A stretch of 64,000 nucleotides of DNA, taken from NCBI GenBank assembly GCA_027603945.1, contig JADIIU010000003.1, positions 1 to 64,000 of the forward strand, given 5' to 3'. Shown here in pieces: positions 1-64,000 of the stretch. The notes under the pieces are model-generated. The model made no database searches. It was not told the DNA's origin and was given only the letters and a program-made list of their open reading frames with translations. Origin of the DNA: Terramyces sp. JEL0728 (Eukaryota; Chytridiomycota; Chytridiomycetes; Rhizophydiales; Terramycetaceae). Position numbers and translations under genes: made by a program. Within the stretch, counting starts at the first letter, position 1, and each line of letters opens with the position of its first letter.

Positions 1-854
1 ATGAATACCGATTATACAAATACTCAAAGAGAGGATTTGGAGTATTGATTCCAGGGAAGAAACTTGCCCCAGAATTTCTTCAAGAACTATATTCAAAAGC
101 TAAGGACACAATTTTAAATGGGTTGCCTAGATTGATAGCATTGTCGCACGGAAGTGCAGCCCGATTGTACTCTCGATATTCTGGTAGTTTCACCACTCAA
201 CATTCAACTGATTTATCCCAAATTAACAACGAACAAATCCAAAGTACATTGAAATTAACCTTAGCAAAAGTAAAAACATTCAAGGTTGAGTCCAAACTTG
301 TTGGCTCTGACGATTACATCAAATTCGTGAAAGGCGAGCAGTTTGAATGCGATTATGAAAGAGAAAATGACAATCTATTCCCTGATGGACGTGTCACAGA
401 GTTGATTGATATTGATCGGCACACTGAAATGTTCTCGTCAATGTTTTCAAACTATATGGTTTGTAAAATACCCTACTCTGCAAACTGGTCCTTGGCGAGG
501 ATTAAGAGGTATGTTCGTCCTTGCAACTCAAAGTTTCGAATGAACAGACACTACGGAAATTTTATGAATATGGACGTGGCGAGAAAATTAAGGCCAAATA
601 GAGCTGCACACGATGATGAGGAGGAAGACGATTTTGACTATGCCATTCCTAACTGTATAGAAATCAACGAATCTGCCGAATCTGTCTTGACCGCTGCTCT
701 GTCCTTTGTGGACAAGGAAAACGATAACTGGGTACTTTCTCAATACTCGCCAACTGAATGTTGGCTTATTGACAATCCTGGCCAGCAAATGCTGACTGGT
801 AGCTTCGAGCCTTTGTTTTCTACAATGCAAGAATGGATTTATGGAACAAAATAA
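1..854 (+). CDS. Nucleotidyltransferase-fold protein, copy 1 (5' end outside window)
   Basis: This is the 3' part of a gene whose start lies upstream of base 1. Codons run in frame from base 3. The first ~50 bases are almost identical to bases 6487-6536 of the complete copy at 5198-7263, so the two are recent duplicates. The C-terminal part shares the LPDxR...IDIDR stretch, an IPYSANW motif and the closing WLIDNPGQQMLTGSF motif. A 21-nt intron probably occupies 244-264 (starts GTAC, ends CCTTAG), because it sits in the same phase and exactly 14 residues before the same conserved YIKF block as the intron of the other copy. This intron has no in-frame stop, so a retained form would add seven residues. 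The molecular role is unknown. The family resembles nucleotidyltransferase-like ankyrin-type proteins of fungi and amoebae that I know only from general memory. Confidence 0.75.
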   Translation, partial: EYRLYKYSKRGFGVLIPGKKLAPEFLQELYSKAKDTILNGLPRLIALSHGSAARLYSRYSGSFTTQHSTDLSQINNEQIQSTLKLTLAKVKTFKVESKLVGSDDYIKFVKGEQFECDYERENDNLFPDGRVTELIDIDRHTEMFSSMFSNYMVCKIPYSANWSLARIKRYVRPCNSKFRMNRHYGNFMNMDVARKLRPNRAAHDDEEEDDFDYAIPNCIEINESAESVLTAALSFVDKENDNWVLSQYSPTECWLIDNPGQQMLTGSFEPLFSTMQEWIYGTK

Positions 855-868
855 ACTGCATTTTTTTA

Positions 869-1846
869 TTAAGAGGTAGAGTAGGTGTTCAATGTTCTGT
901 CATCCCCAACACTTGCTAATCTAGTACCATCGTCATTGTATGCAACACTCCATACTTGATCAGTATGATTCTCAAACGTATGAACACAGGATCGTGAGTT
1001 TAAATCCCAGATTTTTACTTTCTTGTCGCTTGAACTAGAATTAAAAATACTTACCCAGTTGCAAAATGAATGCCATCAGGCGAAGCAGATACTGATAGTA
1101 CCCATGATTGATGTCCAACAAGAGTCGCAATACAATTGGAATTTATCATGTCGTAGACATTGATTCGTTTATCATCAGATACTGTGATAAGATTCTGCGA
1201 ATCTGGGGTGAATACCATCGATCTAATCGCCATAGAATGGCCTATTATTAATACAGTTTACCTGGCAGAGAGTGAATCAACTTGCCTGTTGAAATATCAA
1301 ACACGTGAATAGTTCCGTTTTCAGCTCCACTTGCCATCTTTAATCCATCGGGGCTCTACTATTAGCTGCTATTACAAACGCAATGGACATTACAAACTTT
1401 CCTCCTGTTGATAAAACACGATCTTTTTCCCCAGTTTCCGCATACCATGTTGTAATGTTTCCAGAATGAGATCCAGTAGCGATAAAGCGGTTATCAGGAG
1501 AGAAACACACTGACCAACATTCGACTGGGTTACATTTCAAATACCTGGTCCAGTGTCTATAGTTTTTATTAATGAATGCGAAGCAACATCCCACACACGT
1601 ATTTGGGAATCTAAACTGGATGAACAAGCCACTAAATTAATGTGAAATACAGGCTCCGTTTGGTGAGATATCTACAGAAATTACTCCTAGTTGATGTCCG
1701 GTAAACGTATGCATTTGAGTCAGTGTATCTCCGTTCCATAATTTAACAGTATCGTCTACTGATCCGGTGATTAATTTGTTTTGCTTCTTGCTCCATGCGA
1801 CTGACCATATCCCATCTGAATGCGCTTTATTAGTTTTCTGTACCAT
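869..1846 (-). CDS. WD40 protein of the SKI8/WDR61 type
   Basis: A seven-bladed WD40 propeller of 292 aa, close to the usual ~300 aa of WDR61/SKI8, which works in the Ski exosome-adaptor complex and in many eukaryotes also in the Paf1 transcription complex. It begins [18 protein letters not shown]. Repeats with GH...V...SP..., TGS.D and KLWN/KIWD signatures follow, and the last blade ends in a GDDRTLNTY motif as in SKI8. Five introns interrupt it: 1632-1650, 1525-1544, 1356-1375, 1242-1261 and 1035-1054, of 19 or 20 nt each. Splicing them gives one continuous propeller, whereas none of the raw reading frames exceeds two blades. A poly(A)-like AATAAA overlaps the stop codon. Another small WD40 protein cannot be excluded. 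Confidence 0.8.
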
Positions 1847-7279: not shown

Positions 7280-8563
<1,284 letters not shown>

Positions 8564-9733: not shown

Positions 9734-11755
9734 TTAGAATTGCAGTTTATTTAAATAAGCAGTAATTAAAGTAAAGTGGCAACCACCTGCAACAGATTGC
9801 ACTCTTCTGTCTCCTTTCAAGCTAACCTTTTTGAATTTCAGTTGAGTCATTGGTTCGTCATCCAAATTGCCGTGTGGATCCCAATGCCCAAGTTGTCCAT
9901 ACAAGCTCTGTCCTGTTGTCCACAAATTTCCATCTGTATCAATGGCATCTAAAGTTAAATGTTTTTACATGAGCTAGCACTTGACACGCCAGCAGCGATT
10001 TGTGCAATTTTTACAGTTGTAGGTATTAACTGAGGGGTTGAGTAAACCTTGCTCCCAACAACCCCTAACTGCCCATCATTATTTCTTCCGGCACCGTAGA
10101 TTTTACCTTCAGAATCTAAAAATAGCGCATGATGAATACTTCCAGCTATCTGGACAATTTGCTTGTTCTTAAAATAATCAAGCAGTACCGGGTAATTTCT
10201 TTTTTTGAAATCTCCAAGTCCTAATTCCCCAAAAGAGTTCTTTCCGCAAGCATAAACTCTGTTTTCGTCGACAAAGAAAGTATTATATCCGCAGGCGAAT
10301 ATATGACTGACCGGATGGAATAAAACCTTTGTTGGGATAAACTCTTGACCAGTTGCAAGTCTGTCGAGAGAAATTGGTCTCCCTAGTTCACCATGCTCAC
10401 CGAATCCCCATGTATACACAGAACCCTCCTTTGTCAGGCATACCAAATGAGACTCGCCTGCCTTTATATCAATAGCATCTGACACAAGGACTCTCTTTGG
10501 TTCCAATTGGTTTTCAGTAGCACCATCAAACCTACATTTCCCAACCTCGTTCCTAAAGTATCCCCAAGACCAAACACATCCTTCAGTGTCAATACAAGCT
10601 GAAATGCATTCTCCTGCAGTTACAACTGTGACATTGTCTTTTAATTTCGCTGGGATTTCTCCGTGCTCTCTTCCAATACAATCTGCCAGTCCCCAACACC
10701 ACAACTGCTTTAGTTAAATATTACTTGGTTATTGTCAGTCAATGCATAAGCAAACATTGATCCACATACGACTTCTCTAACTTGGATTCGGCCAATAGAA
10801 TCCAACTTGTCGTCAAGTTTCACTTTTCCAAATTTTGCAGATAATCTTCCTGCTCTTCCCAGTTGGCCATCATCGTTCTGGCCCTATCATTAATATTAGT
10901 TACAATGGAAAACGTTTCACTTTCGATTGGACTACAAGTTGGGTCCTGCTCTGTATTTGGGATCACTGTTGCCTGTGATTATCGTAACAATTACCGCTTT
11001 GGATGGACGAGAAAAATGAGTTTCAGAATGAATATAATCAACGTACTTCATTGCGGATTGAAGTTGTTCGCAAACGCTATTGTATTCCAAAAGTACCCTT
11101 GACATTTTAGAATCGGCATTGCCCAAGCATATCTCACTCAGATATTCGATAATATCAATATTAATATAAGGGTTTTCCTTGTTGATTTGCTGGATTAAAG
11201 ATAAATTTGGAATGTCTGTTGTATTATCCAATGGGCAACTTTTCCTATCCATCTGAGTGTCTGCTTGAAATCCAGTTGACGGTTGGCATTCCACGGCTGG
11301 GTTTGCGTTCCCATCTTCCATTTGGAATGCGCCAGCAATCCCATCAATGTTTGATATTTCATCATCATCGCGTTCAACAGCAATCGAGAATTCGCTGTTC
11401 TCTTCAAATAAGCCTGTAATTAGTAAAAAGTACTTTTGCTTGATTCTGGAATTGTTTCTAACCGTTTTGCTTGAACTTCAAATGAATCAGGATAAGGATG
11501 AGGAATTGGAATCAGTCTACGCCATTCCGCAGTAATATCATCAGATGAAACTATAGATTTAGCATTCATTGAATTGAATTCAGTTTGTGTTTCGAAATTC
11601 ATAAAAAGCTGATTGAATTGATTGATAATGGACTTTGCTTCTAAAAACTCTTGTTCAATTTGCAAATGGGATAATTGGCAGTCGCTGAGAGTTGGAAGCG
11701 ATATTGGGCCAATTGATATACCAGAATCTGCTGTCCGCATCATTGGAGAGTTCAT
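9734..11755 (-). CDS. RCC1-repeat protein with a long N-terminal region
   Basis: A 639-aa protein. The first ~280 residues are acidic and mostly helical, with no domain I recognise. The rest is an RCC1-type propeller with repeated WxWG, G(E/Q)LG and AGxxH elements (for example WSWGYFRNEVG, TWGFGEHGELGR, CGKNSFGELGLGD, GAGRNNDGQLG). RCC1-family proteins act as Ran exchange factors or as adaptors. Five introns join pieces that would otherwise look like separate genes: 11414-11433, 10973-10994 (22 nt), 10884-10903, 10705-10724 and 9949-9968. The start is uncertain: the open frame extends upstream of the ATG at 11755 but contains no earlier ATG. The long N-terminus argues for an RCC1-like adaptor rather than the Ran exchange factor itself. 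Confidence 0.78.
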
Positions 11756-14343: not shown

Positions 14344-15600
14344 ATGGAGCATATCAGGAATTATCACCGCACACTGGATAGAATAGAAAACTTGAAAATA
14401 GGGATAAAGTTGTATAAAAAAGGAGAAGAACTCGAACTAATAGATCAAGTTTGTGTGGAATGGCAACAGCCAAGAATAATTACAGAGGCAGAAAACTCCA
14501 AAGAAAAAGAAACTGTGATTTCAGTGTTATTGGATAACGAAATTAAAAGCGAGCTGGGTTCGGATTTACTCAAGATTGATCCGCATTCTGGGATGGCAGA
14601 GAGACTATTGGAACCAATTCACCATGTCCTGAATGTCAGTGACAATGACGAAAATATTGGGGTTCCTTTAGAAACTAAAAGGTGGCATCAGCCATCAATC
14701 AAGGGAATTTATAGCGAAATGCAGTTCCTTGCCAATATCACGTATTCGATATTAATTGCAGAGACACAGATTTAGAGCAATACGATACAGCGATAACACA
14801 GATATTACTGTTAAAAGTACAATATTTTGGTAATGGGAATTTCGTAATGACAGTAAGAATCATTAATCAAGCCTGACTTTAATACAGAACAAAAGTTTAA
14901 AATTAAAGACGCAAATTACCAGTACATTATCACAAATGAATCAGAGAAAATAAAAGAAAAAGATGAGCAGATAGAGCAACTGATATTTACCGAATTCTAC
15001 AAGCGACTGCAAATATCGCGCTCAAGCACACTGGTGGACCTTGAGATGGAATCTATGGAATCGCAATCTAGAATCGTGTGGAATGGTGAAATCGGAATTG
15101 GAACGGGGTTCAATTCAGCAAATTTGTATATCCAATACATTACCAGCTTGCCAAAAGATTGTAAAAATGAGTCGAAATGCATTATAGGCTATACACAAAC
15201 AGTTTGTTCGACAGCTGATGAAGATGGGCAGGTATGGAACTTTAATGTTCCGATACAGATTTCCTACACTGCAGAAACCCTAAAGTCCCCAATAATCTAC
15301 TTTAAAATTGTTGGTATTGATTACATGGATAGACAACAAATCCAGGGTTATGGATACTTGGAACTCCCTTGTACTGTCGGTAGGTCCAGTTTTGAAATAC
15401 ATACCTGGAAACCATTAAGCAACTATCAGTCGAAAATGAAGACATACTTTTTAGGAGGGTCGCTACAGCTGCAAGAACTCGAATACCTGACCAAAGACAC
15501 TCAAAATAGATACGGCTTCCAAACTGAGAGTAGTGGCTACGTTACGTTCAATTGCAACTGTCTAGTTCAGGATAAGCGCGTGGCAGAGATACCAGTGTAA
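14344..15600 (+). CDS. MKS1: MKS1-like B9-domain transition-zone protein
   Basis: A 405-aa protein that matches Meckel syndrome type 1 protein, a component of the ciliary transition-zone MKS/B9 complex that gates the flagellar base. The opening YHRTLDRIENLKIGIKLYK corresponds to the MKS1 N-terminus. Residues ~230-370 form a B9 domain: GEIGIGTGFNSANLYIQYI, TQTVCSTADEDG, GYGYLELPCTVG, HTWKP and an FLGGS-LQLQELEYL segment, then RYGFQTESSGYV. Introns at 14742-14761 (20 nt) and 14853-14871 (19 nt) restore the middle region including a PDFNTEQKF element. The start is not certain (ATG at 14344 or 14251). Its presence indicates a true cilium and fits with CFAP20 and dynein further right. Confidence 0.85.
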
Positions 15601-15992
15601 GTTTATGTTTATTTAGAACGAAAATTGAAAAAAAGAGTGGAGTCAGCGAAGCATTGCATCGTGCGAAATTACGGTTGGATACATTACGGCAATTCACGAA
15701 GGCTGAACCAAAGGGCTAATCCAAATGGATGTAATCCCAGGGTCAATTAAAAAATAGATTTTTTGATAATTTCCGCGTTTTGCTGTTCCGAATCGTCTCT
15801 GCCCGCATTACCCTGCTAATCCACTCTGTTACCAACCATTTATTTCTAGCTTTGAATCCTTGAAACCCCAAATTTATTTAGACACGGGACCTGACCGCAT
15901 TTTATGCTGATGCGGCGAGGAGTTGACAGATTAAGGACACTATATTACATTCCTTTTTAGAAAATTCCAATGAAAAAAAATTACTTTTTAAA
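15601..15992. other. Intergenic region upstream of the CAP-protein gene
   Basis: About 390 bp between MKS1 and the chitin-binding CAP gene, both on the plus strand. It includes A/T-rich runs, among them an imperfect palindrome around 15750-15766 (AAAAAATAGATTTTTT). I see no tRNA, no exon and no known motif; it probably carries the promoter of the CAP gene. Confidence 0.4.
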
Positions 15993-33928: not shown

Positions 33929-35214
33929 TTAGTATGGGACAATATCCTGTAGGAATGAGACAGACTCGCCATTGTGAATACGTCTAATTGCTTCCGAAAA
34001 AATAATAGTAACATCCATCACTCTAATTTTCGAGCATTTCTTCATATGCTCTTCTTGGGGCACAGTGTTGGATACAATGACTTCCTTCAAAGGGCTCTTT
34101 TCGATTCTATCCAATGCAGCGCCAGACAAAATCCCATGGGTAATAATAGCAACAACGCTGGTTGCCCCCTTTTCAACAAGTTTATGTGCTGCAGAGCATA
34201 TTGTGTCTGCAGTGTCACTCATATCGTCGATAATAATACAATCCTTGTTTTCTACTTCGCCCACAAGCATCATAGTGCTGCCTCTTGGTCCGTGATGGTT
34301 CTTTTCTTTGTGGATTAAGGCAAAATCCATGTTCAATTTATCTGCAATTTGAGTTGCGCTGGATTAATACAAATTACCGTTTAGCTCCTCCTGCATCTGG
34401 TGAAACTATAACGCTGTCTTGATAATTTGGGATTTTATCCTTGATATACTTGATAATTAGTGGATGGCTGTATAGATTGTCCACTGGGATATCAAAGTAA
34501 CCCTGGAATTGAGGGTCGTGAAGATCCATGGTGATTACGTGATCACAACCTGGATTAAATAAAGGTACCTGCTGCCATCAACATATTCGCAATTAGGGTC
34601 CCTGGTTTGGCGCTCCAAGTCTTATATCCTCCATTTTCCTTCTTGTTGTCCGGTTTTGTAACAGTTAAAGTTGTAACCGCAATTTCTGGCTGGGATGTAG
34701 AGATCGAAGAAATTCGGTTTCTCTTTGTTTGAGCTGAAATTGGACTCGGTGCTTGAGGTACATCAGTGTCAATAACAGTTTTAGCTTCTGTAATAAATGA
34801 AACTGATGATAATTTGGAAGGCTTTGAAAGTAAAGGCTTCTTTGGGGGTTCAACTTCTGCCTTAGTGATAGTTACCTTCGTCCTGAACAAATGGATTTTC
34901 AGTTTGACGAGCGTATGGGAAGCACGGGATGACTGCTGTAATTTTACGTGCACTTGCGGTTCTGCATGCTGAAATCATAATGAGAAGCTCAATAAAGTGA
35001 TCTGCAATTAGCTGTAGTTACCATTGACGTTATCGCAGGAAGATTGGACAATGAAAACATCTACATCTCTGACGGTTTCGTTGATAAAGATATTCGTTTC
35101 TTGATTGGAGAACTTGGAGAGGGTTGATTTTCCGACTGGGATCGCTAATTGCTTGCAAATCTTTTCAGCCAACAGAGGATGCGACTTTCCTGAAAATATA
35201 GAAATGTTTCTCAT
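33929..35214 (-). CDS. Ribose-phosphate pyrophosphokinase (PRPP synthetase) with an internal insertion
   Basis: A 402-aa PRPP synthetase, which makes the activated ribose for nucleotides, histidine and tryptophan. Motifs: [82 protein letters not shown], and the PRPP loop [14 protein letters not shown]. About 90 Ser/Thr/Pro/Lys-rich residues are inserted between YARQ (residue ~100) and the [14 protein letters not shown] region, replacing the usual catalytic flexible-loop sequence. Yeast Prs1 and Prs5 have comparable non-homologous insertions. Four introns: 35002-35021, 34857-34875, 34550-34568 and 34359-34377 (20, 19, 19, 19 nt). The subunit may be regulatory rather than catalytic. Confidence 0.9.
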
Positions 35215-43179: not shown

Positions 43180-43863
43180 ATGTTTCTCGTAAACTGGTTT
43201 TGGGATGTGCTAGGATCGCTAGGTAACAAGAAAAATAACCGCAAGGATTGGCAAATAAGAGTGCGAAAATATTATTCTTGGGATTGGATAATGCTGGTAA
43301 AACCACATTGTTGCATATGTTGAAGAATGATCGTTTGGCAACTTTGGCTCCAACCTATCACCCTAGTAAATTGTAAATTAAAATGCAGCGTCTGAAGAAC
43401 TTACAATTGGAAACGTTAGACTAACAACATATGACTTGGGAGGCCATCAAAATGGTAGAATATTTCTAATGCAGCTCGTCGTCTCTGGAAAGATTACTAT
43501 CCCGATGTAGGTGGTATTGTTTATATTGTTGATTGTGCTGACGGCCAAAGATTCCCAGAAGCAAAAGCAGAATTAGATGTAACTATCGTTAATGCCAGGA
43601 AATGCTTAGAATTGAAGATTTATCTAAAGTACCTATTTTAATTCTTGGAAATAAGATTGACGTTGCTGGTGCCGTTTCTGAAGATGAACTCCGTGCTCAT
43701 TTGGGATTATTCAACACCACAACTGGAAAAGGAAAAGTACCATTGAAAGATGTACGTCCAATTGAAGTATTCATGTGCTCTGTCAAAGAAAGGGCTGGAT
43801 ATGGGGATGGTAATAGTGCTCTTAAAGATAGGTTTCCTTTGGTTATCAAATTATTTGAACTGA
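43180..43863 (+). CDS. SAR1: SAR1 GTPase, tandem copy a
   Basis: A 191-aa small GTPase that starts COPII coat assembly at ER exit sites. It has the N-terminal amphipathic [15 protein letters not shown], the P-loop [10 protein letters not shown], the DLGGHQNARRLW switch II, GNKID, and the closing [13 protein letters not shown]; family members are about 190 aa. Five introns: 43223-43245 (23), 43366-43388 (23), 43455-43474 (20), 43579-43598 (20) and 43810-43831 (22). Four of these positions are shared with the copy at 44204, but the first (after the N-terminal helix) is present here only. Confidence 0.95.
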
Positions 43864-44203
43864 ATAAATGTTTTTCCTAGTTTAATTATCGTCGGTTTGC
43901 TAATTGGATTACAGCTTGGTAGTGGTTGTGCATGGCGGTGATTGTTGTATGCCATTGAGTGTCTTTTATTCCCGAAACGATGAATGCAGCTTGTATTTGC
44001 ACTAGTGAAACTTATCTTCCATGCTACTGCGAGAGTTTGTTCTTTAATGAAAGATTTGTCTTCAAGATTGCTGCAAATCCATCGGCAAGAGATCCTTAAA
44101 TGGAATGGCTGCTACGTGTAATTAGACGAAACGCATAAATTGCCACGTACATTGGTGACATCGACAGAGACATATAAAACTACTTGCACAAAACCAAACT
44201 GCA
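43864..44203. other. Intergenic region between the two SAR1 genes
   Basis: 340 bp without a supported gene. It holds the promoter of SAR1 copy b. No RNA gene or repeat was seen. Confidence 0.45.
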
Positions 44204-44857
44204 ATGTTTTTCATTGACTGGTTTTGGGATATTTTATATTCCTTTGGCTGGGCCAACAAATCTGCAAAGATATTATTCTTGGGGTTGGACAATGCCGGCA
44301 AAACGACTTTGTTACACTTGCTGAAATTCAACAGAATAGGGACTTTTGCACCAACGTACAACCCAAGTAATCCAGCGCTAAATTAGCTTCTCAAGAAATC
44401 ACGATTGGAAAAATCACTTTGAATACCTTTGATTTGGGCGGCCATAGGAATGGTAAATAAGAATAACAACAGCGCGCATATTATGGAAAGATTACTATCC
44501 AGATGTTGGCGGAATAGTTTACATTGTCGATTGTACCGACATTAGCAGGTTTGAGGAAGTCAAATCCGAACTAGATGTAATATCAATATTTACCTAGGAA
44601 ATTCTCAAACTAGAGGATCTATCGCACATTCCTATTCTGGTACTTGGAAATAAGATTGATATTCCAGGAGCTGTTTCTGAAGATCAGCTACGTGCGCATT
44701 TGGGTTTATTCAACACTACCACTGGAAAAGGGAATACCGTCTCCAAAAACACTCGGCCAATAGAGGTATTCATGTGCTCAGTCACAGAAAAGGCTGGCTA
44801 TGGAGATGGTAGATTGCATTAACACTAGGGTTCTTGTGGCTGTCAAATTACCTTTAA
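44204..44857 (+). CDS. SAR1 GTPase, tandem copy b
   Basis: A 190-aa paralog of the upstream gene in the same orientation. Motifs: [68 protein letters not shown] and [12 protein letters not shown]. Four introns at 44367-44386, 44453-44472, 44577-44597 (21 nt, with an in-frame stop) and 44809-44828. The first intron of copy a is absent here, so a 23-nt intron was precisely gained or lost. The sequence divergence is moderate, so the duplication is not very recent. The two copies may differ in expression stage. Confidence 0.93.
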
Positions 44858-47114: not shown

Positions 47115-48032
47115 TTAATGCTTGGATTTAACCTATTGTTAACACAGGAATACATTTAGTAGCAAAGTGTCTGCATCCACGTAAATCTTGTTGTTGCTCT
47201 GAGATACAATAGATGCGATTTCTCTAGCCGCTTCTAATTTACGGAGCTCCAAGAATCCAGGGTTGTTGCTTACAGCATTACCAATCAATATAGCAGATTT
47301 GGCTTCTCCTTCAGCTTTTACAATAATGGATTGCTTTTCTTGTTTTGCACGGTCTACAATAAAGAAACCTCTCTGTGCTTCTTGTTGTGCAATTTGTTTA
47401 GCTTCAACAGCGTGTGTGAATTCAGGAGAGAATGCAACATGGGTAATGGATACATCATCCAAAACCAAATTGAATTTTCCAGCACGCAACATTAACTGTT
47501 CCTTGACTAGTTTGGACACCTTTTCACGCAGAGTAATGATTTGCGATGCATTGAATTGCGCAACAACTGATTTCAAGACTTCATTGACGATCGAAGGTAA
47601 AACTCTTTCATCTGAATTAATTTAGAATACCGTAATCCGACCCCAAGGTTTTGGTGATTGTTGGTAATTGGTGTTCATTAGGTCTAGATAATACTCTAAC
47701 GGTGATGTTTACCATTTGCAAATCCTTGGTTCCAGTTAGTGAAGCAATATTTCTTGGTTTTGCACGGACATCATAAATAATTGGCTGTTCAAACCATGGA
47801 ATAACAAAATGAGTTCCTTCTCCATATACCTTGTCTTTTACCCCTCCAATTCTGGAGAATTTGACTGCTCTGTACCCACCATCCACTTCAATTAGCAAAT
47901 ATTACCATTGAACAGGGATTGATTGATTCCATATCCTAGAATACCAAGTGAAATCAATACTCCGGTTGAATTGAAGAAGCCTCTCTGTCTGCTGACTTGA
48001 TTAAAGAGCTTGTTGAAATTTGGGTTGCTCAT
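47115..48032 (-). CDS. PHB2: Prohibitin-2
   Basis: A 285-aa mitochondrial inner-membrane prohibitin, partner of PHB1 in the ring complex that protects cristae and m-AAA protease. The N-terminus [27 protein letters not shown] is the membrane anchor, followed by [37 protein letters not shown]-like repeats, and the coiled-coil [23 protein letters not shown]. Introns: 47886-47905 (20), 47612-47630 (19) and 47133-47153 (21, with an in-frame stop). The 47133-47153 intron is inferred from its typical form; if it is not spliced, the protein ends at 47139 instead. Confidence 0.92.
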
Positions 48033-48473: not shown

Positions 48474-48932
48474 ATGAATACCGCACTATCAGATCAATAT
48501 CCATCATATCCAAAGAAAATCGAATATGGCTTTGGATTATTTGCCGCAGAAGATCTGCCGGCGAACACCATAGTTGAAAAGTTTGAAGGTCATCAAATTT
48601 ACGAAGATTACAATCAAGTCAGCAAAGATCAAAGGCCATATGTGTTAAATATCAAACGAGATGAAAAGTGGGTTTGGCTCTTGACTTTTAGTAACGCTCG
48701 TTACACTAACCACTCTTGCAGGCCAAACTGCACCTTGAACGACAACCAAGAGATAGTTACTCTAGTCACTGTTCCTAAAGGAGAAGAGTTGAATTTCGTC
48801 TATAATGGCGGGAGTGAAGAAGACGAATGGGACCCAATTTGGACATTCAAGTGCGAGTGTAAAAATGACAACTGCCAAGGACTGATTGACCGCTACCGCA
48901 GTGTAGATCGACTAGGAAATCCAGTAAAGTGA
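48474..48932 (+). CDS. Minimal SET-domain methyltransferase
   Basis: An intron-less 152-aa protein that is little more than a SET domain with a post-SET tail. Recognisable elements are [21 protein letters not shown], the SAM-binding [10 protein letters not shown] block, [14 protein letters not shown] (the active-site Tyr) and a cysteine cluster [10 protein letters not shown]. There is no pre-SET or other domain, which makes it similar in size to stand-alone viral or bacterial SET enzymes. The target (histone or another protein) is unknown. Confidence 0.87.
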
Positions 48933-48999
48933 TTTCGCTTGCAATAAACTACATTTTTTATGGCAGAAAAGGTTATTTTTTTTCTTTTTTTCAAAACAC

Positions 49000-51352
49000 A
49001 TGCAAGTTCCAACCAACTTTACAGACTTGGAACTATCAGAAGCAACCCAGAAAGGCCTTCAAATGGCACATTTTACAAAGATGACTGATATTCAGAAAGC
49101 TTCCATTCCTAAAGCGCTTGAAGGGAAAGATATATTGGGAGCAGCGAAAACAGGTTCAGGGAAAACACTTGCATTTATTGTTCCTGTGTTAGAAAAGTTG
49201 CAAAAGGAAAATTGGAATTCGTACGATGGATTGGGTGCACTTATTATATCTCCAACTAGAGAGTTGGCATTGCAAATCTTTGAAGTTCTCAGAAAGGTGG
49301 GCAAAAAACATTCATTTTCTGCTGGATTATTAATTGGCGGAAAAGATTTGAAACAGGAACAAGAGAGAGTGTCTAGAATGAATATTTTGATCTGTACTCC
49401 CGGAAGATTGCTCCAGCATATGGACCAGACACCTGATTTTGATTGCAGCAATCTCCAAATACTAGGTATTTATCATTAATTATAGTACTGGATGAAGCGG
49501 ATCGGATTTTGGACATTGGGTTTGAAAAGACGTTGAACGCAATTATTGACAATTTGCCAAAGAGACAAACTCTGTTGTTCTCTGCTACTCAAACCAAGGC
49601 AGTAAAGGATTTAGCCAGGTTGAGTGTCAAGGATGCGGAATATGTTGCTGTTCATGATAAAGCGGATGCCAGCACTCCCCAAAATCTCAGCCAGAGCTAT
49701 ATAGTCTGTCCATTATCAAACAAATTGGATATATTGTTTTCATTTCTCAAGACTCACTTGAAAAGCAAAATATTGGTGTTTTTGGCAAGTTGCAAGCAGG
49801 TTCGGTTTGTATTTGAAGCATTTTGTAAGATGCAACCTGGTATACCTTTACTATCACTGCATGGTAAACAATCACAAGCCAAAAGAATGGCTATTTTTGA
49901 CCAGTTCTCCAAAAGACCAGACGGATGTCTTTTTGCAACTGATATTGCTGCAAGAGGTTTGGATATCCCCGCAGTAGACTGGGTTGTACAGTTGGACTGC
50001 CCTGACGACACAGCGACTTATATTCATAGAGTTGGACGGACTGCCAGATATGGTGCGACTGGCCACGCATTATTGATATTGCTACCCACAGAAACAGAAG
50101 CCATGCTAAAGGAACTAGAGCAAAAGAAGGTTCCCATCAAAGAAATCAAAGCAAATCCAAAAAAGACTCTTTCCATCAAAAACCAGCTTGCGTCCATTTG
50201 CTCAGAAAGACCAGACTTGAAATATCTCGCCCAAAAAGTAATTTTATCTAATTATAGGCATTTATCACCTATTTAAGATCTATTTATTTGCAGTCAAATA
50301 AAGAAATATTTGATGTGCATGCTCTCCCTGCCGAAGAATTTGCACAGTCCCTCGGGTTGCTTGGTGCGCCAAACATTAAATTCAAAAAACAAGGAAACAG
50401 CAAGAACAAATCCCGTCAAGTGGAGGCGTTAGACAACAAGAAGATTTCTATTCCAGTGTCTGGAAAAAAGAAGCAAATAGAACTGGCCTCCAGAGTATCA
50501 TCTGACGAAGATGAGCCAGAAGTAATTTTTACTAATGTAGCCATCCAAACCAAAAACGAGAACAGACAAAATGTTTGCTCAAAAGAATCTCACAGTTTTG
50601 TCGTCCCACTATGATAAGCTTAAAGAAAAGGAAGAAGAGTCTGACGATGAACTCTTGACAATAACTAGAAAAGATCACGAAATATCTGATGATGATGAAG
50701 CCAAACTCAACAAACTGCAGTCCAAGCGTTCCCAAAAGAAGATCAATAAATTATTGAACGAACGAGGTTTGGGAACAAAACTCAAGTTCACCGAAGACGG
50801 GCAAGCGTTTGATCAATTCAAAGTGGAGATGTTGAGCGAATTTGAAAAGGAAAAGAAAATTGACGAAAGAACCAAAGAATATCTAGAAACAACTACAGAA
50901 AAGATGAAGATGGAAGATGCAGTCGATAAACAAACGGCCAAAGAAAAGCTAAAGGAAATGAAGCGTGCAAAGAAGTTGAAGGAAAAACAGTCTCGTAGAG
51001 ATGAGGTAATTGCAACTAATCATAGAGTGGGCCTGTTCAAGTAACCTTAGAAGGATCAGGGGATGAAGATGCTATGGTTGGTTCAGACTACCAAGGTTCA
51101 GATGCAGGCTCCTATAACGGAAACTATGAGAATATTGATTCCGGATCGGATTACGAAAGTGGTAGTGATTCTGGTGCAGAAGGGATGAACTTTGATGATT
51201 ACGAACTTGCTGATTCTGATTCAAGTGACGAATCGATGCCAAAACCTGCAAAGAGAAAAAACAAGACTGTAGAGAAACCGCACAAAAAGCGTATGCTGTC
51301 CGATTTAGACAGGGATTCATTAGAGACATTAGCCTTATCATTATTGCAATAA
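49000..51352 (+). CDS. DBP4: DEAD-box RNA helicase DBP4/DDX10
   Basis: A 757-aa nucleolar helicase for 18S rRNA maturation (U14 snoRNA release). The order is typical: Q-motif [15 protein letters not shown], Walker [10 protein letters not shown] (~residue 50), [31 protein letters not shown], then the DBP4-specific [18 protein letters not shown] and [11 protein letters not shown] region and an acidic, lysine-rich C-terminal coiled region. Introns: 49466-49485 (20), 50238-50257 (20), 50522-50540 (19) and 51006-51025 (20). The ATG follows a T-rich tract. Confidence 0.95.
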
Positions 51353-52793: not shown

Positions 52794-55333
<2,540 letters not shown>

Positions 55334-55353: not shown

Positions 55354-56049
55354 TTACAATCTTGTTGACAATTTCAGCAATACCAGGTAAACAAACAGCC
55401 CGCTGACGAAAACACTGAACCATAGCTTGTAATTTACACTCTTGACCACAGCTTCCCTTTTTTCCTCCTTTATTTCTGGAATAATTTTTTTTCGCTGGGT
55501 TAGAACTGGTTCGATAGGAGTTGTTTCAACTTCAATATCAACTAAATCCGGAAAGATTGCTAAATTAATGTGGAATACCTTTGAATTTTTCCTGTCTCCT
55601 ATTCCAAGCTTTACTCTGTCTAGCAAATATCCTTTTATCCTCATTAGTAGTTCTGATACTTCCGGTGGTTTCTGTATCCTCCAACATAAAAGAAAGTAGT
55701 CCGGTAAGTATTGTGGAGACACTCCAAGCTGGATTCCAGCTTCCAGGATGATAGTCAGACATTGAAAGGCATAAACGGAAATCTGTCCTAAATCGGCCAT
55801 TTGGTGTCAGCATTTTAATCGCTGGTGGCTACATTATATCACTATTACCTTGAATGGATAGTCTGATGGGAATATGACTTTTCCATGGAATTCTCCACCG
55901 TCATAGGGACTGTCCTTTGGACCAGTAATAACATAATGCCATTCCAAAACATCGCTTTCCAATGGTTTGGCAATGATATATGGCGGTGGATTCTTTGTAA
56001 TCAGCATGTATTCCTTTGTAAGTCGTTTATGTGCTTGTTTTGAAGCCAT
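55354..56049 (-). CDS. UBC6: Tail-anchored ubiquitin-conjugating enzyme UBC6/UBE2J
   Basis: A 218-aa E2 for ER-associated degradation. The core HKRLTKEYMLITKNPPPYI, EWHYVITGPKDSPYDGG and the active-site region RLCLSMSDYHPGSWNPAWSV, followed by ILTGLLSFM, are typical of the Ubc6/UBE2J class, and a C-terminal transmembrane helix (LWFSVFVSGLFVYLVLLKL) anchors it in the ER. Introns: 55829-55848 (20) and 55560-55578 (19). The ATG is at 56049 (MASKQAHKRL). Only 20 bp separate its stop from that of ARG5,6. Confidence 0.94.
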
Positions 56050-56943: not shown

Positions 56944-57894
56944 TTATATATCCTGATATTCTGTTGGGGCCGACCAAAGTTCTTCCACGACTTTCAAGTC
57001 TGCCGCAATATTCGACTTCAGCACTTTTGGAACGGATGCCAGGTCCTTTTCCAAAGGGTTGTCTCTAGCTGTGTTTTCGAAAGGATCATCTGCAAGACCT
57101 CCATACTTTTTAAAATAGCTCTCTCTGGCAATCCACTCATACAATGCTGCCGGGCTGTCCTTGAGTATGATCTTGTTAGTTACCACTTACTTTTGGCACG
57201 GTTGCCGGATCAAGAAAGTAAGTGATCATTTTCCATCCCATCCAAAAGAGTGTGTTTGTTGGAAAAAGATACATTCTGGACAGTCTCTCGGGGTAGTGCT
57301 TCTGTAAGATCGGGACAATATAAGAGGCGAGTTTGGCGTCCTCTTTATCTGCTCTCATCCCTGATTTATCAAAAATTATGGTCAGCTTGTCCGTCAAAAA
57401 CCTAATTTAACTCTAATGTACCCCCTTTTCCTCCCCAGTTCAATGAAATAAACGATAAATCTCATTTCCTTTTCCCTCTCGCTTTCGGTCTTTGGGCCGA
57501 CATATTTAGACCCATTCCACACAATTATACACGATCCATCCAGCGCATTTCCAAAGTATTGCAGCCTGCCTGTCTTTTCCATCGAAATGAATTCTTCAGA
57601 TAATATACTGTTGACATTAAAGTCCTTTCTCCATTGCTGTATAAGTAATATTTACTAGGGTTTCTGAAAGAGCAGCGAGTCCCTTGCCTCTATGGCCAGC
57701 ATATCCCAGTAACCACTTTGCAATCTCAGTATCCGTCAGGAAAGATATCCCATCCTCTCTATACAACTCCTTTGCTGTCATTACAAACATCTGTGTTACA
57801 ACAGTCATACTTGGATCTGCTTTTGTCTTTCTGCTTCATCAGCACCAGTTAAAACATCGTCAGGGTCAATCTCCATTTCCACTTTATTTGACAT
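56944..57894 (-). CDS. CRAL-TRIO (Sec14-like) domain protein
   Basis: A 290-aa protein with a CRAL-TRIO lipid-binding core. After an acidic N-terminus (MSNKVEMEIDPDD) and a helical region with KWLLGYAGHRGKGLAAL, the core shows FIVYFIELGRKRG, FLTDKLTIIFDKSGMRAD, ASYIVPILQKHYPERLSRMYLFPTNTLFWMGWKMI and FLDPATVPKII. Such proteins move phosphatidylinositol or other lipids. Introns: 57791-57810 (20), 57637-57655 (19), 57402-57421 (20) and 57172-57190 (19). The stop is 16 bp from the stop of the convergent PNP oxidase gene. Confidence 0.85.
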
Positions 57895-57950: not shown

Positions 57951-58592
57951 TCAAGCTTGCTTTTGAATAGGCAAAAATAGTTTGAATTCTGGAGGAAGCT
58001 CTTCTTCGGAATACAAACGGTCGGAAAAGTAGATTCTTCGGATTCTGCAGTTGGCATGAATCTGAACGCGTAGAGTTTCAATATAGTTTGTGCCATAAGC
58101 ACGTCTTGTAAAATCAGACAAGTTGAATTGAATTTGATTCCATCCGTCATCAAGCCTCATTGGCATTGTACAGATAAATGGCTTTACCCTTGTTGTACTC
58201 TAAAATTAATTATAATTACTTGATAGTTGGAGGCTCTAAACCGGCGACGAACATTTTTATCGTCCAATACTTGCACTTCAAAAGTAAAGTACTTTTTAAG
58301 ATTCTTGATAATCATCACCAAGAATGGAAGCTTAATTCCGAGTGTTCTATTTTGCTGAGCAGGACAAGTAATGTAGTTTGTAGAAACATTGGTTCCAATT
58401 ATTTCTAATACTGAGGATTGGATATCGTTGTCAGTAATACGTTTAATGTGGCCATTCCTTACTTTTTTATCCCAGATTTGTAGCGGTTTGGAGCTAGCGG
58501 TTAATCTTCAATTTACCCGATACTGTACAAAATTGACAGGAATCCAGACTATAGTTAACTCTGTTTCCTACCTGAAATGTATTTCTAAACAT
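57951..58592 (-). CDS. CFAP20: CFAP20 (BUG22) ciliary protein
   Basis: A 191-aa copy of the highly conserved axonemal and basal-body protein CFAP20. Spliced protein reads [20 protein letters not shown], then the [18 protein letters not shown] and [20 protein letters not shown] regions and [21 protein letters not shown]. Three introns: 58549-58571 (23), 58494-58516 (23) and 58200-58219 (20). The spliced length equals the animal protein. It links this genome to motile cilia with doublet microtubules. Confidence 0.97.
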
Positions 58593-58694: not shown

Positions 58695-61338
58695 TTATAA
58701 TTGAAAAAAGTTTGACTGCGGAAACTTTTTTGCAAAAGCTTCCTTGAGGTGAAGACCTCGTTCTTCGTCGTTGAAAGTCAGAGCGACCAGGTTGAGAATT
58801 GAAAGTGCATCCTATGGTGAATAAAAATTACCTCAAGCGTACAACTATCAATCAAATTATTGTTGGATGCGTTAATAAATTCCGGCAATGCCGCTTCAGG
58901 TGTGATTAACTTGAAGACTTGGGCTCCAATAAGCACTAGCTCAGGTTTTGATTCGTCCAAATAGCCGTCGTTTTCTGCAACTAGCGTATTCAAATCAATT
59001 TCTTTGCCAAATACTTCAGCATACGCTTCTTTCAAACCTTGGGCAATGTCTGGTTGCAAAGTCGCATTTTCTAGCGCCATTGCTAGTTGGACTGAATACA
59101 AGTGAATAAACGGTGCAGAGTTGTCAAGTTGGAAAGCTTTTGCCAAGCACTTGAATCCGAGAGCGTATTTGCCTGTGTTAAACTAATAATACCTTTGGCA
59201 AAGTATACTCTGCAGCCCAACTTTTGAACTTCTAGATCATTTTCATTAAACTTTAGCATCGGTTTCAAGAACTTGGTAGCTTCAGCCAAATAATCCACAC
59301 CTACAACATATTTTGATCCATAAACATCCTCCTTTTTGGCAGTATCGCCATTAGTTTTCTTTGCTTCAGATTTTTTGGCTTTTTTCAGCAGTTTTTTGCG
59401 CTCAGTCTCGCCAATTCCAGCCAAACTTACTCCGTCTACCATTGATTCTGCGCTTGAGCCACTTTCGTAGAGTATCAAGTATGTTTCAATCGCACTTTTG
59501 GCAGCTCTAACGTAGTACTTGTGGTGGCGAATGGACTGGAAGTTTTTCAAAAGGTCAACGTAACTCTGGAACGTTTGCTTGCGTATGGAATAGGAATGGA
59601 AATCAATCAAATCGTCAATAAATTCTGCAAAATGCTTTTCAATTTGATGGTATCTTTTCAGTGCCAATCCATATCTTCTTTGTCTTTGGTGCGACTTCCC
59701 AGTTGCGTACGCATACCAAATGCACTGCATATCAATTAAATCCTGTGTCGGATCAGTACTAGTAAAGTCCTGGTGTCAAAATAGCCATACCCTTGTAAAC
59801 AATGAAATGGTGGCTTCCGCGTCTGCAATTTTGTCGTTTTGAAGCTTGTACTTTGTGCACTTGGAGTTTATAAATCTATCTTGTAAATCTAAAGATCTTG
59901 CAAAATCCATACACTCCATTGCCATATTAAAGCTTCCAGCATGTTTGTAAATCCTTGCTTTAGTCATATAGAGCTCAACCGCAGTGGGAGAGTGCTCGAT
60001 TGCCAAGTTTATCCATTCTAAACTCTTATCTATATCTCTATAATAATCTGCTAATTGAGCTAAAAAGTAGGCTACCCACAAGTATACAGATGGAGATTCA
60101 ACAGCTAAACATTAAAAAAAGCTACCATGACCTTCACCATAAAATGTGTTGAATGCAACTAGATTTGCATAATATGATTCTACCGTGTTTTTCAAGATTA
60201 TTGCCTTCTCTTTGTCCACGAGAAGATCTTTAATTGAATTAAATAGCGAAGGAACTCCTTTGCGGAACATTTCAACCAAGAAATGGTCAACAAGTTTGCT
60301 AAATTGTTCGCCGGCTGCATAATTGAGAGGGACTCTATGAATTAGATGAGACCTTGGATATTTCATCTTTAAGCTAGCATACAGTGCTATCAATTTGTCA
60401 GTTTTTTCAGAATCTAATTCTCCTTTCAGACCTTTTGACTCCTCTAATCCATCGAGATATTTGGTGTAATCTGGATTCATTTCAATCAGTTTTGAATACT
60501 CCTCTTCCGCATCATTAAAGCGCTCCAACTTTAGTAGTAATTGAGCTGAAATCAAACTAATATGTACCTCTGATTTCCATAAATGTGCGGCGATCGCAAA
60601 CACGGTCTTTAACTGAATCCAAGAAATCCAATGCTCTCTGGAAGTCATTACTTTCTTCCATTAAGAATGCACGGAATAAAACAAATTCACTGTCTTCGTA
60701 GAATGAAAGGGAGCCGGTAGTTTGAACTTGACCTTTGGTTGTTTCGTCGAATTCTGCCAATACCTTGTCAGCCAAGTCTGGCTGTCCAAGCAAGTAGAAA
60801 GAAATCGCATATCCAAGCCAGTTTACTTTAAGTTGCGGCTTAGATTCCAACAATTTTTGACAAGCTTCCTATAATTAATTTCTGTTACATTGAAAGCTTC
60901 GTAATTTCCTAGATGCACTTGCAATACTGAAAGATCTCTTAATATTTGGATATTTGCCTGTTGTTAACAATACTGTATCTTTTCAATTCTTAGAGACTGG
61001 GAGTAACATTTGATGGCTTCTTCATAATTTTTTTCTCCTCTGTGAAATAAACCATAAACATGCCAACAAATGGGAGATGAAATGTCTAATCTGATCCCCT
61101 TTTTGATCAGCTCGTGCGCTTCCTCTTTTCGATCAAGATGGCTGCAAAATAAACCCTTCATTGCAAGTGTCTCCCCATGCTCTGGAATTTTCTTTAATAT
61201 TTGTTCACTGACTTTGAATCCCTTCTTATATTCCTTGCTTTCATAGTGTTTCTATGTTTAACTTGGTGTTACAATAACGGTTTTGAATAGTTGTTGTTCT
61301 TTTAAGGGCAACTCCCTCTTTGCAGCTGCAGACATCAT
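58695..61338 (-). CDS. NAA15: NatA auxiliary subunit NAA15
   Basis: An 825-aa TPR-repeat protein that anchors the NatA N-terminal acetyltransferase to ribosomes; family length is ~850. Motifs: LPLKEQQLFKTVIKHYESKEYKKGFK, KGLFCSHLDRKEEAHELI, CWHVYGLFHRGEKNYEEAIKCY, NIQILRDLSVLQV, and RKQTFQSYVDLLK. Eight introns: 61252-61272, 60958-60978, 60869-60888, 60546-60567, 60105-60125, 59770-59790, 59173-59192 and 58812-58831 (21, 21, 20, 22, 21, 21, 20, 20 nt). The second one begins AT rather than GT (see findings); every other intron is GT-AG. The first two codons are both ATG. Confidence 0.94.
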
Positions 61339-61684
61339 GCAGAAAAAATGAAAAAATTGTCAACTGGTGAATTTCAAAAAAGATTTCATAGCTTGAGTTT
61401 GCGTCTGATACGGTTGGAATTTGGTGAGACTTTAGCGGGATTATCGTTCCCAAACAGTTATTAGTGACGTGCGGCCTCTTGAGCAGAATTTGAAATCTCA
61501 TAGATCAAAGAGGATATATATCTCACTAGGAATTTTTGTCGTTGTACGGAAGGTGTGGTGGAGATTGAGAGCCAAAGAACAGCCTGCTGGATATAATTTA
61601 GTAATTTACGTTTATTATTCAGCATGCCAATATTTTCAATTGAAGATGATTCACTGGGTTTTTCTTTATTATTGACGCGTCTCG
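61339..61684. other. Divergent promoter region between NAA15 and the dynein gene
   Basis: About 345 bp between two divergent starts. Short open frames cross it but have no domain or splice structure. It must contain both promoters. Confidence 0.45.
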
Positions 61685-64000
61685 ATGGACGAAGAAATTG
61701 AAGTTGAAATTCCTGAAAGGAGAGTATCGCCTTCACCAACTCAAAAAGAAAGGAGGCAGTCTTCGGCAAGACTTCCAAAGTTAAAAGCGCAGACAAACGC
61801 AGCTCTACAATTTACACAACAGCTTCAGGGTAGAACTGCCACCACAACAAGCAACAACTCCATTCCGCATTTTGAATATGGAGTAAAGAGAAAAGTAACT
61901 ACAAGTAAACACCTTTTACCGCTTGCTGCACGAAACAAAGTACTTGATTACTGAATCTAGGAATCTTCTGTTTTCAGCAGATATATAATGGAATCTGAAG
62001 ACGAGATAAAACATAAAACATTGCTAGCGGCTAAAAGAATCAAAATAAACCCCGGAGTACCCACTGCAGCCATCCAAAAAGAAGTGGAACAGCATAATCT
62101 CGGCCTTTCCAAAAAAAGTGCTATTCCTCCAATTAGAAAAGCGTCCGGAAGGGAAAGCTCAGGGACTACAACAGAAGGGTTTTCACAACAAGTTCAGATA
62201 TCTATCGATGTCGATATCCCGCCAGCAGAGGGAGGGGAAACAAGCAAGTTTGCAAGCCCATTTACTTTTTTAAAGTACTTGAAGCAACACACAGACACAG
62301 ATGAATTTGTCTATTTGATTCCAGTAACATCTACGCAAAAAGGACAACCAACTTACAATCCTTATAATTTGCAAATTGTCGATTTTTTCAAAATAAATAC
62401 AAAGTCTTCTGAAGGATACTATACAATGTCGGCAAACGTAAGCGCGAATTGATCATAGGGAATTACTCATATTAACCAATATGGCCAAGGAACATTCACC
62501 CCCATTGAGCAATGGTGCAGAGAATATGAGCTGTATCATAAATTGCTCAAAATCCCATTTTTTGCCCGATACAGATCGTGGAAATGCTTCACTTTATGGA
62601 AGAACACTGTCCTCCACACCAAGATTCTAAGTGCAAAGAAACTTTTGCAAAAACAACTGTTTATTTTGCATCCATGTATACGGCCTGCACTGCAAGCTAT
62701 AAATAATCAAAATATGGATATTATGTTAGAAAAACGGCTAGTAGGGTTTGAAGAGCAAAAGACGTTGGAGCTGAACGATTTTGTCCGAGAACAGAAGAGT
62801 CTAGTTGAAAAAGTAACAGTTGAAGTATTAACGCCTTGGGAAGAACAAATTAGAGAAGTTGTGGAAAATGCATCCCGCCAGTGTTTAGTTAATGGCGGGT
62901 TTGAAGTTCAAACATCCGACGAAAATCAGGAAAATGAAACCAAAGAAGTTAGGAAGCTAACTTTCACCGAACAGGCTGCCAGACGAACCGAATGCAAAAA
63001 GTTGGCGAGGTTTGTAAAGTTGGCAGACTATATGATGGTTTCTACTCTTCACATGCTTGCTATTGCCTCTGTTCAGGATTTACTCTGTTTCACTTTTCAA
63101 GGATGCCAGGATTCTGATGTTGTCGTAGACGATATTGGAGTCGGAACAGCATTCATCAACGAATACGGCGTGGCAGTACCAAATCCTGAAAACGGAAATG
63201 GCGAAAGAACAAATGAAAGTGCATATACTGATGGAAACCTCACCGGTGTCCAAGTTGGAGGCGTAGTAGTTGGAAAGGAAGTCAAAACTTCTCAACTTAT
63301 AGAATGTGGATTTGATGGATTTTCCAATATTTTAAGCCGCTTGGTGGTTGCTTCAATGCAAAAAATCGAGCTTATTGAAATCATCGAGGAAGAAGGTGTT
63401 AATTTGGAACAAAACATCGCAATGGAAGAGTTAGCTCAACCCGAACCCACCAAAAAAGCTGAGGATGGCAAATGGAAAATCAGCAGCGAAAAAGCAAAGC
63501 AATTTGTACCGCTCTTTCGAACTGAATTGATGGTCGAACGAGATGGAGAAAATACTAGATTTTACTTTTCTTCATCTTTGGCAGACTACCTTGCAACTTT
63601 AGACATCCTGTTAAAGGTTTACCTCTCTACAATTGAAAGGATTGGGCAGCTCACAAACACCATTTCCTTTTTAGATTCATCAAATTTGGCTGGAGGTTCC
63701 TACTCCACTGTAAGAGGATTGGATGATCCGGAATATGGCGACGGTCCTCAAGTAGGGTCTATTGTGCTGGAAGGTGGCTACTTTAAAGAACTGTGCGGAA
63801 GAATTAGAGGAGTGCTAGTTGGTATGTTTGCAAACGCTTCCAGCTGGTTGAATACTTTGGACAACATGAAAAATATGTGGATAAATAATGAATCGTTCAA
63901 AGGGCTGGAGTCTCTTCGAAAAGAAGTTGGAGAGCTGGCATACATATTGGCTACTTCAACTTCCGAAACGCATGAAGGAGGGGCAGCAGCTATCATTGCA
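61685..64000 (+). CDS. Axonemal dynein heavy chain (5' part, runs off the window)
   Basis: The first ~757 residues of an axonemal dynein heavy chain. After an acidic, charged N-terminus the tail contains FTFLKYLKQHTDTDEFVYLIPVTSTQKGQ and then the heavy-chain tail motif FTPIEQWCREYELYHKLLKIPFFARYRSWKCFTLWKN, which I associate with inner-arm (DNAH6-like) dynein. The frame stays open to base 64000. Introns: 61940-61960 and 62438-62458, both 21 nt with in-frame stops. The motor domains lie to the right of the window. Outer- versus inner-arm assignment is uncertain. It shows that the organism builds a motile flagellum. Confidence 0.88.

Follow-up and report, generated by a model that had tools for sequence, protein, structure and literature searches.

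Does a fungus splice introns of about 20 nucleotides (nt) throughout its genome, and what would set their length? The question is raised by the first 64,000 nt of contig JADIIU010000003.1 of the chytrid Terramyces sp. JEL0728 (Chytridiomycota, Rhizophydiales, Terramycetaceae), the whole stretch analysed here and called the window below. A first-pass annotation had spliced about 99 introns in it, nearly all 19-23 nt long, and had judged them remarkable in a genome with fungal-type genes. We conclude that this fungus very probably does have real spliceosomal introns of about 20 nt. Almost all of its introns appear to be of this size, near the smallest that any spliceosome is known to cut, yet a clear branch point and many ordinary splicing proteins are retained, which makes Terramyces a good system for studying minimal intron size.

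Gene models were obtained with a two-strand predictor written for this analysis. Long open frames served to train its three-periodic coding statistics, introns were defined as GT-AG, and the length prior was flat at first; the predictor requires an AG acceptor and enforces a frame divisible by three. The genome sample of 264 kb comprised the window and 20 stretches of 10 kb from 20 of the larger contigs (genome 15.0 Mb in 231 contigs; GC content 39.8% over 289 kb). With a flat length prior and no splice-site model, lengths already peaked at 19-20 nt, and 74 of 144 GT-AG introns measured 19-23 nt. Learned splice-site weights under the flat prior placed 319 of 491 introns in this band (62, 157, 68, 25 and 7 at successive lengths), the rest being thinly spread over 10-100 nt. 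When the length prior was learned as well, the share rose to 428 of 459 (91, 197, 95, 34 and 11), a figure favoured by that prior. In 18 hold-out loci (58,088 bases outside training; 7 of 25 loci were dropped as overlapping or near-duplicate), 57 of 109 introns lay in the band with splice-site weights and 16 of 35 without. Introns occur in 118 of the 135 predicted genes of the sample, at 3.2 per predicted gene, and extrapolation to the genome gives about 18,000 (flat prior) to 24,000.

Within the window, genes scoring at least 8 yielded 91 introns in 34 genes, 87 of them 19-23 nt long (17, 46, 16, 3 and 5), close to the earlier counts of about 20, 47, 17, 5 and 8 without being identical. The band is equally narrow across the sample, where the broader spread that the first-pass annotation had named as counter-evidence was not seen. 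That annotation also listed two longer introns, of 43 and 47 nt; the predictor calls one each of 36, 43, 60 and 92 nt. All four long calls are doubtful, and the 43-nt one is probably a false join.

A motif scan of both window strands gave the same lengths. With ten random sequences keeping three-letter statistics as control, GT[AG]...[CT]TAA[CT]N0-4[ACT]AG occurred 19 times at 19 nt (expected 2.3) and 33 times at 20 nt (expected 1.5), followed by 8, 3 and 9 occurrences at 21, 22 and 23 nt (expected 2.9, 1.9 and 2.8). At 24-60 nt, 143 occurrences against about 80 expected form a mild surplus with no peak, the pattern that chance pairing of genuine 3' ends with GTs further upstream would produce. 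In the predictor with flat prior and no splice-site model, where GT-AG gave 74, eight decoy dinucleotide pairs gave 5, 6, 7, 8, 9, 9, 10 and 16 segments in the 19-23 nt band, with about 6 to 8 expected; the value of 16 belongs to AT..AC, with 8 of its segments at 23 nt. Thus, of nine dinucleotide pairs, GT-AG alone gives a peak at 19-21 nt.

Homologous proteins place most of the junctions that they cover. In seven window genes, 24 of 27 junctions are covered by the alignments and show neither insertion nor loss at the splice point. Five genes were aligned with sequences of solved structures: prohibitin (47115..48032, minus strand; introns 47133-47153, 47612-47630 and 47886-47905), with 3 of 3 junctions aligned to 9urz, one of them at the very edge of the alignment; aspartate aminotransferase (7280..8563, minus; 7726-7745, 8224-8243 and 8531-8553), with 2 of 3 aligned without a gap to 2cst; SAR1 GTPase paralogue 2 (44204..44857, plus; 44367-44386, 44453-44472, 44577-44597 and 44809-44828), with 4 of 4 aligned to 1m2o; PRPP synthetase (33929..35214, minus; 34359-34377, 34550-34568, 34857-34875 and 35002-35021), with 3 of 4 aligned to 4lyg; and UDP-glucose 6-dehydrogenase (20838..22287, minus; 21062-21083 and 22209-22229), with 2 of 2 aligned without a gap to 2q3e. 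For CFAP20 (57951..58592, minus; 58200-58219, 58506-58528 and 58549-58571), the support consists of matched Pfam ranges: spliced residues 1-184 match CFA20_dom positions 1-184, so there is no net insertion or loss over the three junctions. This gene also contains a 20-nt microexon (58529-58548, minus) between two 23-nt introns. NAA15 was aligned by mafft with 28 homologues, 7 of them displayed, and 7 of its 8 junctions lie in conserved alignment. The three junctions lacking homology support are the first of aspartate aminotransferase (residue 3), which the alignment does not reach, that of PRPP synthetase at residue 106, inside an insertion with no aligned counterpart, and a NAA15 junction in a variable loop. 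Weaker points among the 24 are the prohibitin junction just mentioned, the CFAP20 junctions, judged by matched ranges, and the NAA15 junction at residue 481, a few residues from which the sequences differ in length by one residue.

NAA15 (58695..61338, minus) contains introns 58812-58831, 59173-59192, 59770-59790, 60105-60125, 60546-60567, 60869-60888 and 61252-61272, together with an AT-AG intron at 60958-60978. The deposited Terramyces sp. JEL0728 protein is identical to the first 811 of our 820 model residues, so most of these splices already stand in the public annotation; the last nine residues differ because the deposited model continues into CFAP20. Boothiomyces (75% identity) and Globomyces (51%) follow. 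The AT-AG intron, of the usual length (21 nt) and with the branch motif TTAAC, is placed there because homologues require the junction RIEK/ANIQIL. Our predictor had instead called 60938-60973 (36 nt), and the deposited protein reads identically over that stretch; by homology, it appears to be short of five residues at this non-GT intron. A 16-nt intron was rejected since it breaks the frame, which the 21-nt AT-AG intron fits. With any donor allowed at a penalty, 542 of 552 predicted introns began with GT, 4 with GC (three of these in introns of 19-23 nt), 4 with AT, 1 with TT and 1 with GA, and a second candidate 21-nt AT-AG intron appeared at L040:2271-2291.

Related deposited proteins show comparable oddities. 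Both Boothiomyces NAA15 proteins (P0002, P0003) lack the stretch around the AT-AG site, as if predictors had met the same odd intron. In the protein of Boothiomyces macroporosus (P0003), seven additional residues sit precisely at the Terramyces junction of 59173-59192; these may be a 21-nt intron retained by the predictor, which would put tiny introns in Boothiomyces too. NAA15 and CFAP20 are fused in deposited proteins of Terramyces and Boothiomyces (P0001-P0003), and Boothiomyces P0121 fuses U2AF65 with a PF17136 protein, a family that we take to be a ribosomal L24 family. Since the deposited Terramyces NAA15 runs into the next gene and is five residues short by homology, Terramycetaceae gene predictions need checking.

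The anatomy of the introns was read from the 428 predictions of 19-23 nt. They start with GTAA (214), GTAT (76), GTAC (63), GTAG (39) or other tetranucleotides (36), GTA being present in 392. They end in TAG (266), CAG (109), AAG (47) or GAG (6). Expectation-maximisation, seeded with TTTAAT and restricted to positions after the sixth, returned the branch motif (C/T)T(A)A(C/T), with T at 0.97 and the branch A at 0.99, and exact YTAAY occurs in 261 introns; the (C/T)TAAY-like element that had been noticed lies a few nt before the terminal AG. The upstream arm, from the start to the branch A, is 13 or 14 nt long in 367 introns, and the downstream arm, from the branch A to the end, is 5 or 6 nt long in 387. 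Their sums account for the main lengths: 13+A+5 gives 19, 13+A+6 or 14+A+5 gives 20, and 14+A+6 gives 21. Independent variation of the two arms should yield about 7.7 introns of 18 nt; 2 were found (flat prior), which hints at a lower limit to total length. Two or three bases usually separate TAAY from AG, leaving no pyrimidine tract.

G is the usual base at +5 of a 5' splice site. Here, its frequency is 0.18-0.26 and that of T 0.32-0.48 in the 19-22 nt classes, with G in 6 of 11 introns of 23 nt; the site prefers GTAATT-like starts, and positions +4 to +6 are weak. A possible link of the weak +5 G is to U6 methylation by METTL16 (PMC10581693; this and the other articles are cited from excerpts). 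Among 2,809 exonic GT..AG decoys of 19-23 nt, in exons chosen by the same model as the introns, 23 pass the score that keeps 75% of introns, 156 pass at 90% and 405 at 95%. The latter two figures indicate that more than these signals is needed to specify the introns fully.

Searches for the splicing machinery recovered a U2 small nuclear RNA (snRNA) with 140 bits and the usual GUAGUA branch box, as well as five proteins. SF1 is identified by a match to its helix-hairpin family and, on visual inspection, two zinc knuckles; four segments of U2AF35 align with the human protein, in a model without its start; U2AF65 keeps its RRM1, RRM2 and UHM regions, in a gene split by four introns of 19-20 nt; and Slu7 and Prp18 are both present. 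The first-pass annotation had envisaged unusual U2AF, SF1 or U2 components. This holds for U2AF65, whose RRM1 is altered, and not for the U2 branch box, SF1, Slu7 or Prp18, which look ordinary where read.

In the Terramyces U2AF65 model, the RNP1 motif of RRM1 reads KEHCHVEF, with histidine at both usual aromatic positions. F or Y stands at each position in 118 of 120 homologues, these being the nearest to the query among the matches listed; the two exceptions are one Boothiomyces entry, again with two histidines, and one metagenomic protein with S and I. The RRM1 aromatics are intact in Globomyces, and within the Terramyces protein RNP2 of RRM1 and the RRM2 positions keep their aromatics and the UHM motifs are intact. 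Mis-splicing as the source of the histidines was rejected, as both codons lie in an unbroken exon upstream of the junction. The loss suggests a relaxed reading of the pyrimidine tract, for which these introns have no room; it could also be neutral. Upstream of RRM1, the model contains eleven residues (33 nt, L038 ~1563-1595) that are absent in the Boothiomyces protein and represent either a coding insert or a longer GC-AG intron.

The explanation that best accounts for these observations, and that we regard as highly probable taken whole, is that U2-type introns have shrunk genome-wide to 19-23 nt, with their length set by duplex spacing and with U2AF65 as a bridge. Their U2 type is indicated by GT-AG ends, a predicted branch point whose motif matches the U2 box, and the presence of SF1, U2AF35 and U2AF65. 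U1, and then U6, would pair with the first six intron bases and U2 with the bases around the branch A, which would leave two or three unpaired bases between the duplexes in the 13-14 nt arm. Judging from established spliceosome architecture, intron length would be set by the closest approach of the two duplexes, and the short 3' arm would place the AG directly in reach. Deletion pressure would have driven introns to this floor, which the rarity of 18-nt introns would mark. As a pyrimidine tract would not fit between branch point and AG, U2AF65 would serve chiefly to bridge, by protein contacts, to SF1 and U2AF35, with RRM2 as a further route of action, a role that the loss of the RRM1 aromatics would fit. 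A bolder version holds that the Terramycetaceae spliceosome works at a geometric minimum on essentially all introns, where two fixed arms stand in for separate recognition of the 5' site, branch point and pyrimidine tract, RRM1 of U2AF65 has given up the tract and length, gauged as two duplex spacings, is part of specificity; we consider this tentative and rather unlikely.

The same U2AF65 data bear on a rival account in which splicing is ordinarily U2AF-dependent, a T-rich 5' arm replaces the pyrimidine tract, and the change in RRM1 is neutral or adapts it to a different base. T makes up 0.40-0.51 at positions 5 to 9 of the 20-nt introns, and RRM2 and the UHM motifs are intact, as this account would have it; however, it does not sit well with the loss of both RRM1 aromatics that nearly all listed homologues retain. 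We place it somewhat short of an even chance. General genome compaction with an unchanged spliceosome finds support in the tight packing of the sample, where predicted coding sequence occupies 205,058 of 264,000 nt and the median gap between predicted genes is 170 nt, and in splicing proteins that, where matched, look complete or nearly so. Against it stand the weak G at +5 and the RRM1 change, which among the 120 listed homologues is confined to Terramycetaceae, bar the metagenomic protein with S and I, and we judge compaction alone to be distinctly short of an even chance.

A third possibility is that the segments are not spliced at all, and that sequencing indels, programmed frameshifts or translational bypass mimic introns. 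The evidence for introns is indeed confined to genomic sequence and homology, and 22 of the 95 introns of 21 nt would keep the frame open if retained. Yet the segments have GT, branch motif and AG in common at fixed spacing, none of the eight decoy dinucleotide pairs gives their length peak, and homologues place 24 of 27 junctions, which makes this reading very improbable. Internal eliminated sequences (IES) of ciliates have TA ends. Excision at the DNA level in the manner of such IES is more improbable by far: the short, uniform length resembles that of Paramecium IES (~26 to 28 bp; PMC9942806), but the segments here begin with GT, end with AG and contain a branch motif, their ends are not TA repeats, and the host is a fungus.

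Several results weigh against shrunken U2-type introns with a length set by duplex spacing. The introns are predicted from genomic sequence and protein homology, and the branch motif is not universal, with exact YTAAY absent from 167 of the 428 introns and TAAY anywhere absent from 86. When lengths up to 600 nt were allowed, only 193 of 525 calls fell in the 19-23 nt band; this corresponds to 38.6 calls per nt of length, against 0.4-1.8 elsewhere with no second class, and we read the long calls outside the band as spurious. U1 snRNA was not found by the search made for it, which is no proof of absence, and U6 gave two weak matches only (27 bits against a gathering value of 44), without the AGC triad. 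The family search for RED_N likewise returned no match, again no proof of absence. Slu7 and Prp18 are dispensable for short branch-to-AG distances in yeast. Their loss had been predicted for this reason, a prediction ruled out by the finding of both. The histidine pair of U2AF65 in two genera of one family amounts to a single evolutionary event. Finally, a human subset of short introns with truncated tracts is spliced with SPF45 instead of U2AF (PMC8363638), and such a substitution is not supported here: the query used found no SPF45 gene, its sole UHM match lying in an RBM39-like protein. As to U6 itself, loci L030 and L031 contain two near-identical U6-like sequences with ACAGAGA and no AGC triad, pseudogenes or something else; the U6 DNA search was empty, which does not prove absence.

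Introns of this size are a known kind; what differs here is the fungal host, their number and the clear branch point. Other tiny-intron genomes named in the cited excerpts are those of ciliates, endosymbiont nuclei, rhizarian parasites and dicyemids. Nearly the same narrow length band is found in the nucleomorph of the chlorarachniophyte Bigelowiella natans, with more than 800 introns of 18-21 nt in ~300 genes (PMC10245619), and chlorarachniophyte nucleomorphs are reported to lack a branch-point signature (PMC2483917). However, the nucleomorph is a relict endosymbiont nucleus, whereas Terramyces has a 15.0-Mb chytrid genome, an extrapolated ~18,000-24,000 introns and a clear branch motif. The heterotrich ciliates Stentor and Blepharisma share tiny introns genome-wide outside any endosymbiont; theirs are shorter, at 15-16 nt (PMC10245619, PMC9942806, PMC9505925), and a Stentor table gives Slu7 and Prp18, both found in Terramyces, as not found (PMC9505925). 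Mikrocytids resemble Terramyces in a very narrow length band and conserved intron sequence, with 16-17 nt introns, 224 of them in M. mackini, and a parasite spliceosome of 17-19 proteins (PMC10245619). Terramyces, in contrast, has dense introns and five of the splicing proteins sought. Lengths of 15-17 nt, typical of these two groups, account for none of the 459 introns of our final model and for 10 of 491 under the flat prior, on par with neighbouring lengths.

A branch point almost on top of the 3' splice site, which the first-pass annotation had emphasised, was also seen in our set and has parallels elsewhere. The distance from branch point to AG is short and fixed in several yeasts as well as in Yarrowia lipolytica, Trichomonas and Giardia, and the last three have no pyrimidine tract (PMC2483917). 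In Trichomonas, some two dozen introns are near 25 nt long (PMC12316389). These three are intron-poor, however, and Yarrowia introns are rather long, in contrast to the dense and tiny introns of Terramyces. Among relatives of fungi, the microsporidian Encephalitozoon cuniculi combines introns averaging 35.8 nt with a conserved branch motif (PMC2483917), but microsporidia have few introns and a reduced spliceosome (PMC10245619), unlike Terramyces with its several introns per gene. Irimia and Roy described in 2008 three short-intron, intron-dense lineages without a branch-point signature (PMC2483917). Terramyces conforms to that class in a 5' site largely restricted to GT(A), and departs from it in its positioned branch motif; it thus combines features kept apart in the excerpted parts of that paper. 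In a survey of 644 fungal genomes, the short-intron example in the excerpt is 63 nt in Cryptococcus neoformans, and two chytrids appear in the density table (PMC8476143). Among the matches listed, judged by title and the start of the abstract, we found no publication on tiny introns in chytrids; most subscription papers lay outside the search. A chytrid with thousands of ~20-nt introns and the usual U2AF, SF1, Slu7 and Prp18 would allow the lower size limit of splicing to be tested more cleanly. It would also test the need for a pyrimidine tract and U2AF65 RNA contacts, and the 2008 rule that short-intron genomes lose the branch-point signal.

The other window genes carry introns as called by the predictor, with outside support only where stated. 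On the minus strand, a WD40-repeat gene (869..1846; introns 1035-1054, 1242-1261, 1356-1375, 1525-1544 and 1632-1650) shows seven WD40 stretches in its spliced protein. It is accompanied by gene 9734..11755 (9949-9968, 10705-10724, 10884-10903, 10973-10994 and 11414-11433), presumably RCC1-like from its sequence; a large gene of ~2350 residues (22810..29979) whose introns are all 20 nt (24292-24311, 25143-25162, 28781-28800, 29191-29210, 29410-29429 and 29625-29644); gene 35278..37962 (35476-35496, 36234-36253 and 37531-37549), which we take to be ubiquitin-protease-like; gene 55354..56049 (55560-55578 and 55829-55848), presumably UBC-like; and a CRAL-TRIO gene (56944..57894; 57172-57190, 57402-57421, 57637-57655 and 57791-57810).

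The plus strand encodes a B9-domain (ciliary basal body) gene (14344..15719; 14742-14761, 14853-14871 and 15597-15616) and genes that we assume to be mitochondrial-carrier-like (30261..31177; 30822-30840 and 31067-31085), PLP-decarboxylase-like (41094..42945; 41332-41351, 41534-41552 and 42098-42116) and ARG5,6-like (52794..55333; 52902-52922, 53377-53397 and 53613-53632). SAR1-like paralogue 1 (43317..43880, plus; 43366-43388, 43455-43474 and 43579-43598), in a model without its 5' part, lies in tandem with paralogue 2 (43317-44857 together), and the two have three intron positions in common, with lengths of 23/20, 20/20 and 20/21, 0 to 3 nt apart. Model 48474..51352 (plus; 49466-49485, 50238-50257, 50522-50540 and 51006-51025) probably joins two genes, which we take to be SET-like and DEAD-box-like, its 43-nt call (48924-48966) being the probable false join. 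Eighteen further introns of 19-23 nt are predicted in other genes: 244-264; 6678-6697; 9019-9038; 12536-12556, 12963-12981; 17005-17024, 17088-17107, 17108-17130, 17701-17719, 17976-17995; 18482-18501; 33418-33437; 40612-40631; 51691-51711, 52313-52333, 52577-52597; and 61940-61960, 62438-62458. An eL18 model (20200-20529, score 4.8) lacks its start.

ARAGORN and Rfam scans of the window were empty. Under the standard code, the 116 complete predicted genes of the sample end in TAA (87), TAG (16) or TGA (13), whereas in Amoeboaphelidium protococcarum UAA and UAG are translated as glutamine (PMC5304391). This species was rejected as the source on that ground, and an aphelid or sanchytrid origin in general because of the NAA15 match to Terramyces. 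Three adjacent, similar-looking genes for multi-pass membrane proteins occupy 2042-5122 (minus), one of which was scanned and gave no Pfam match. Genes at 1-854 and 5288-7263 have similar stretches by eye, the latter with no Pfam match when scanned, and a gene without introns at 15993-16943 encodes chitin-binding and CAP domains.

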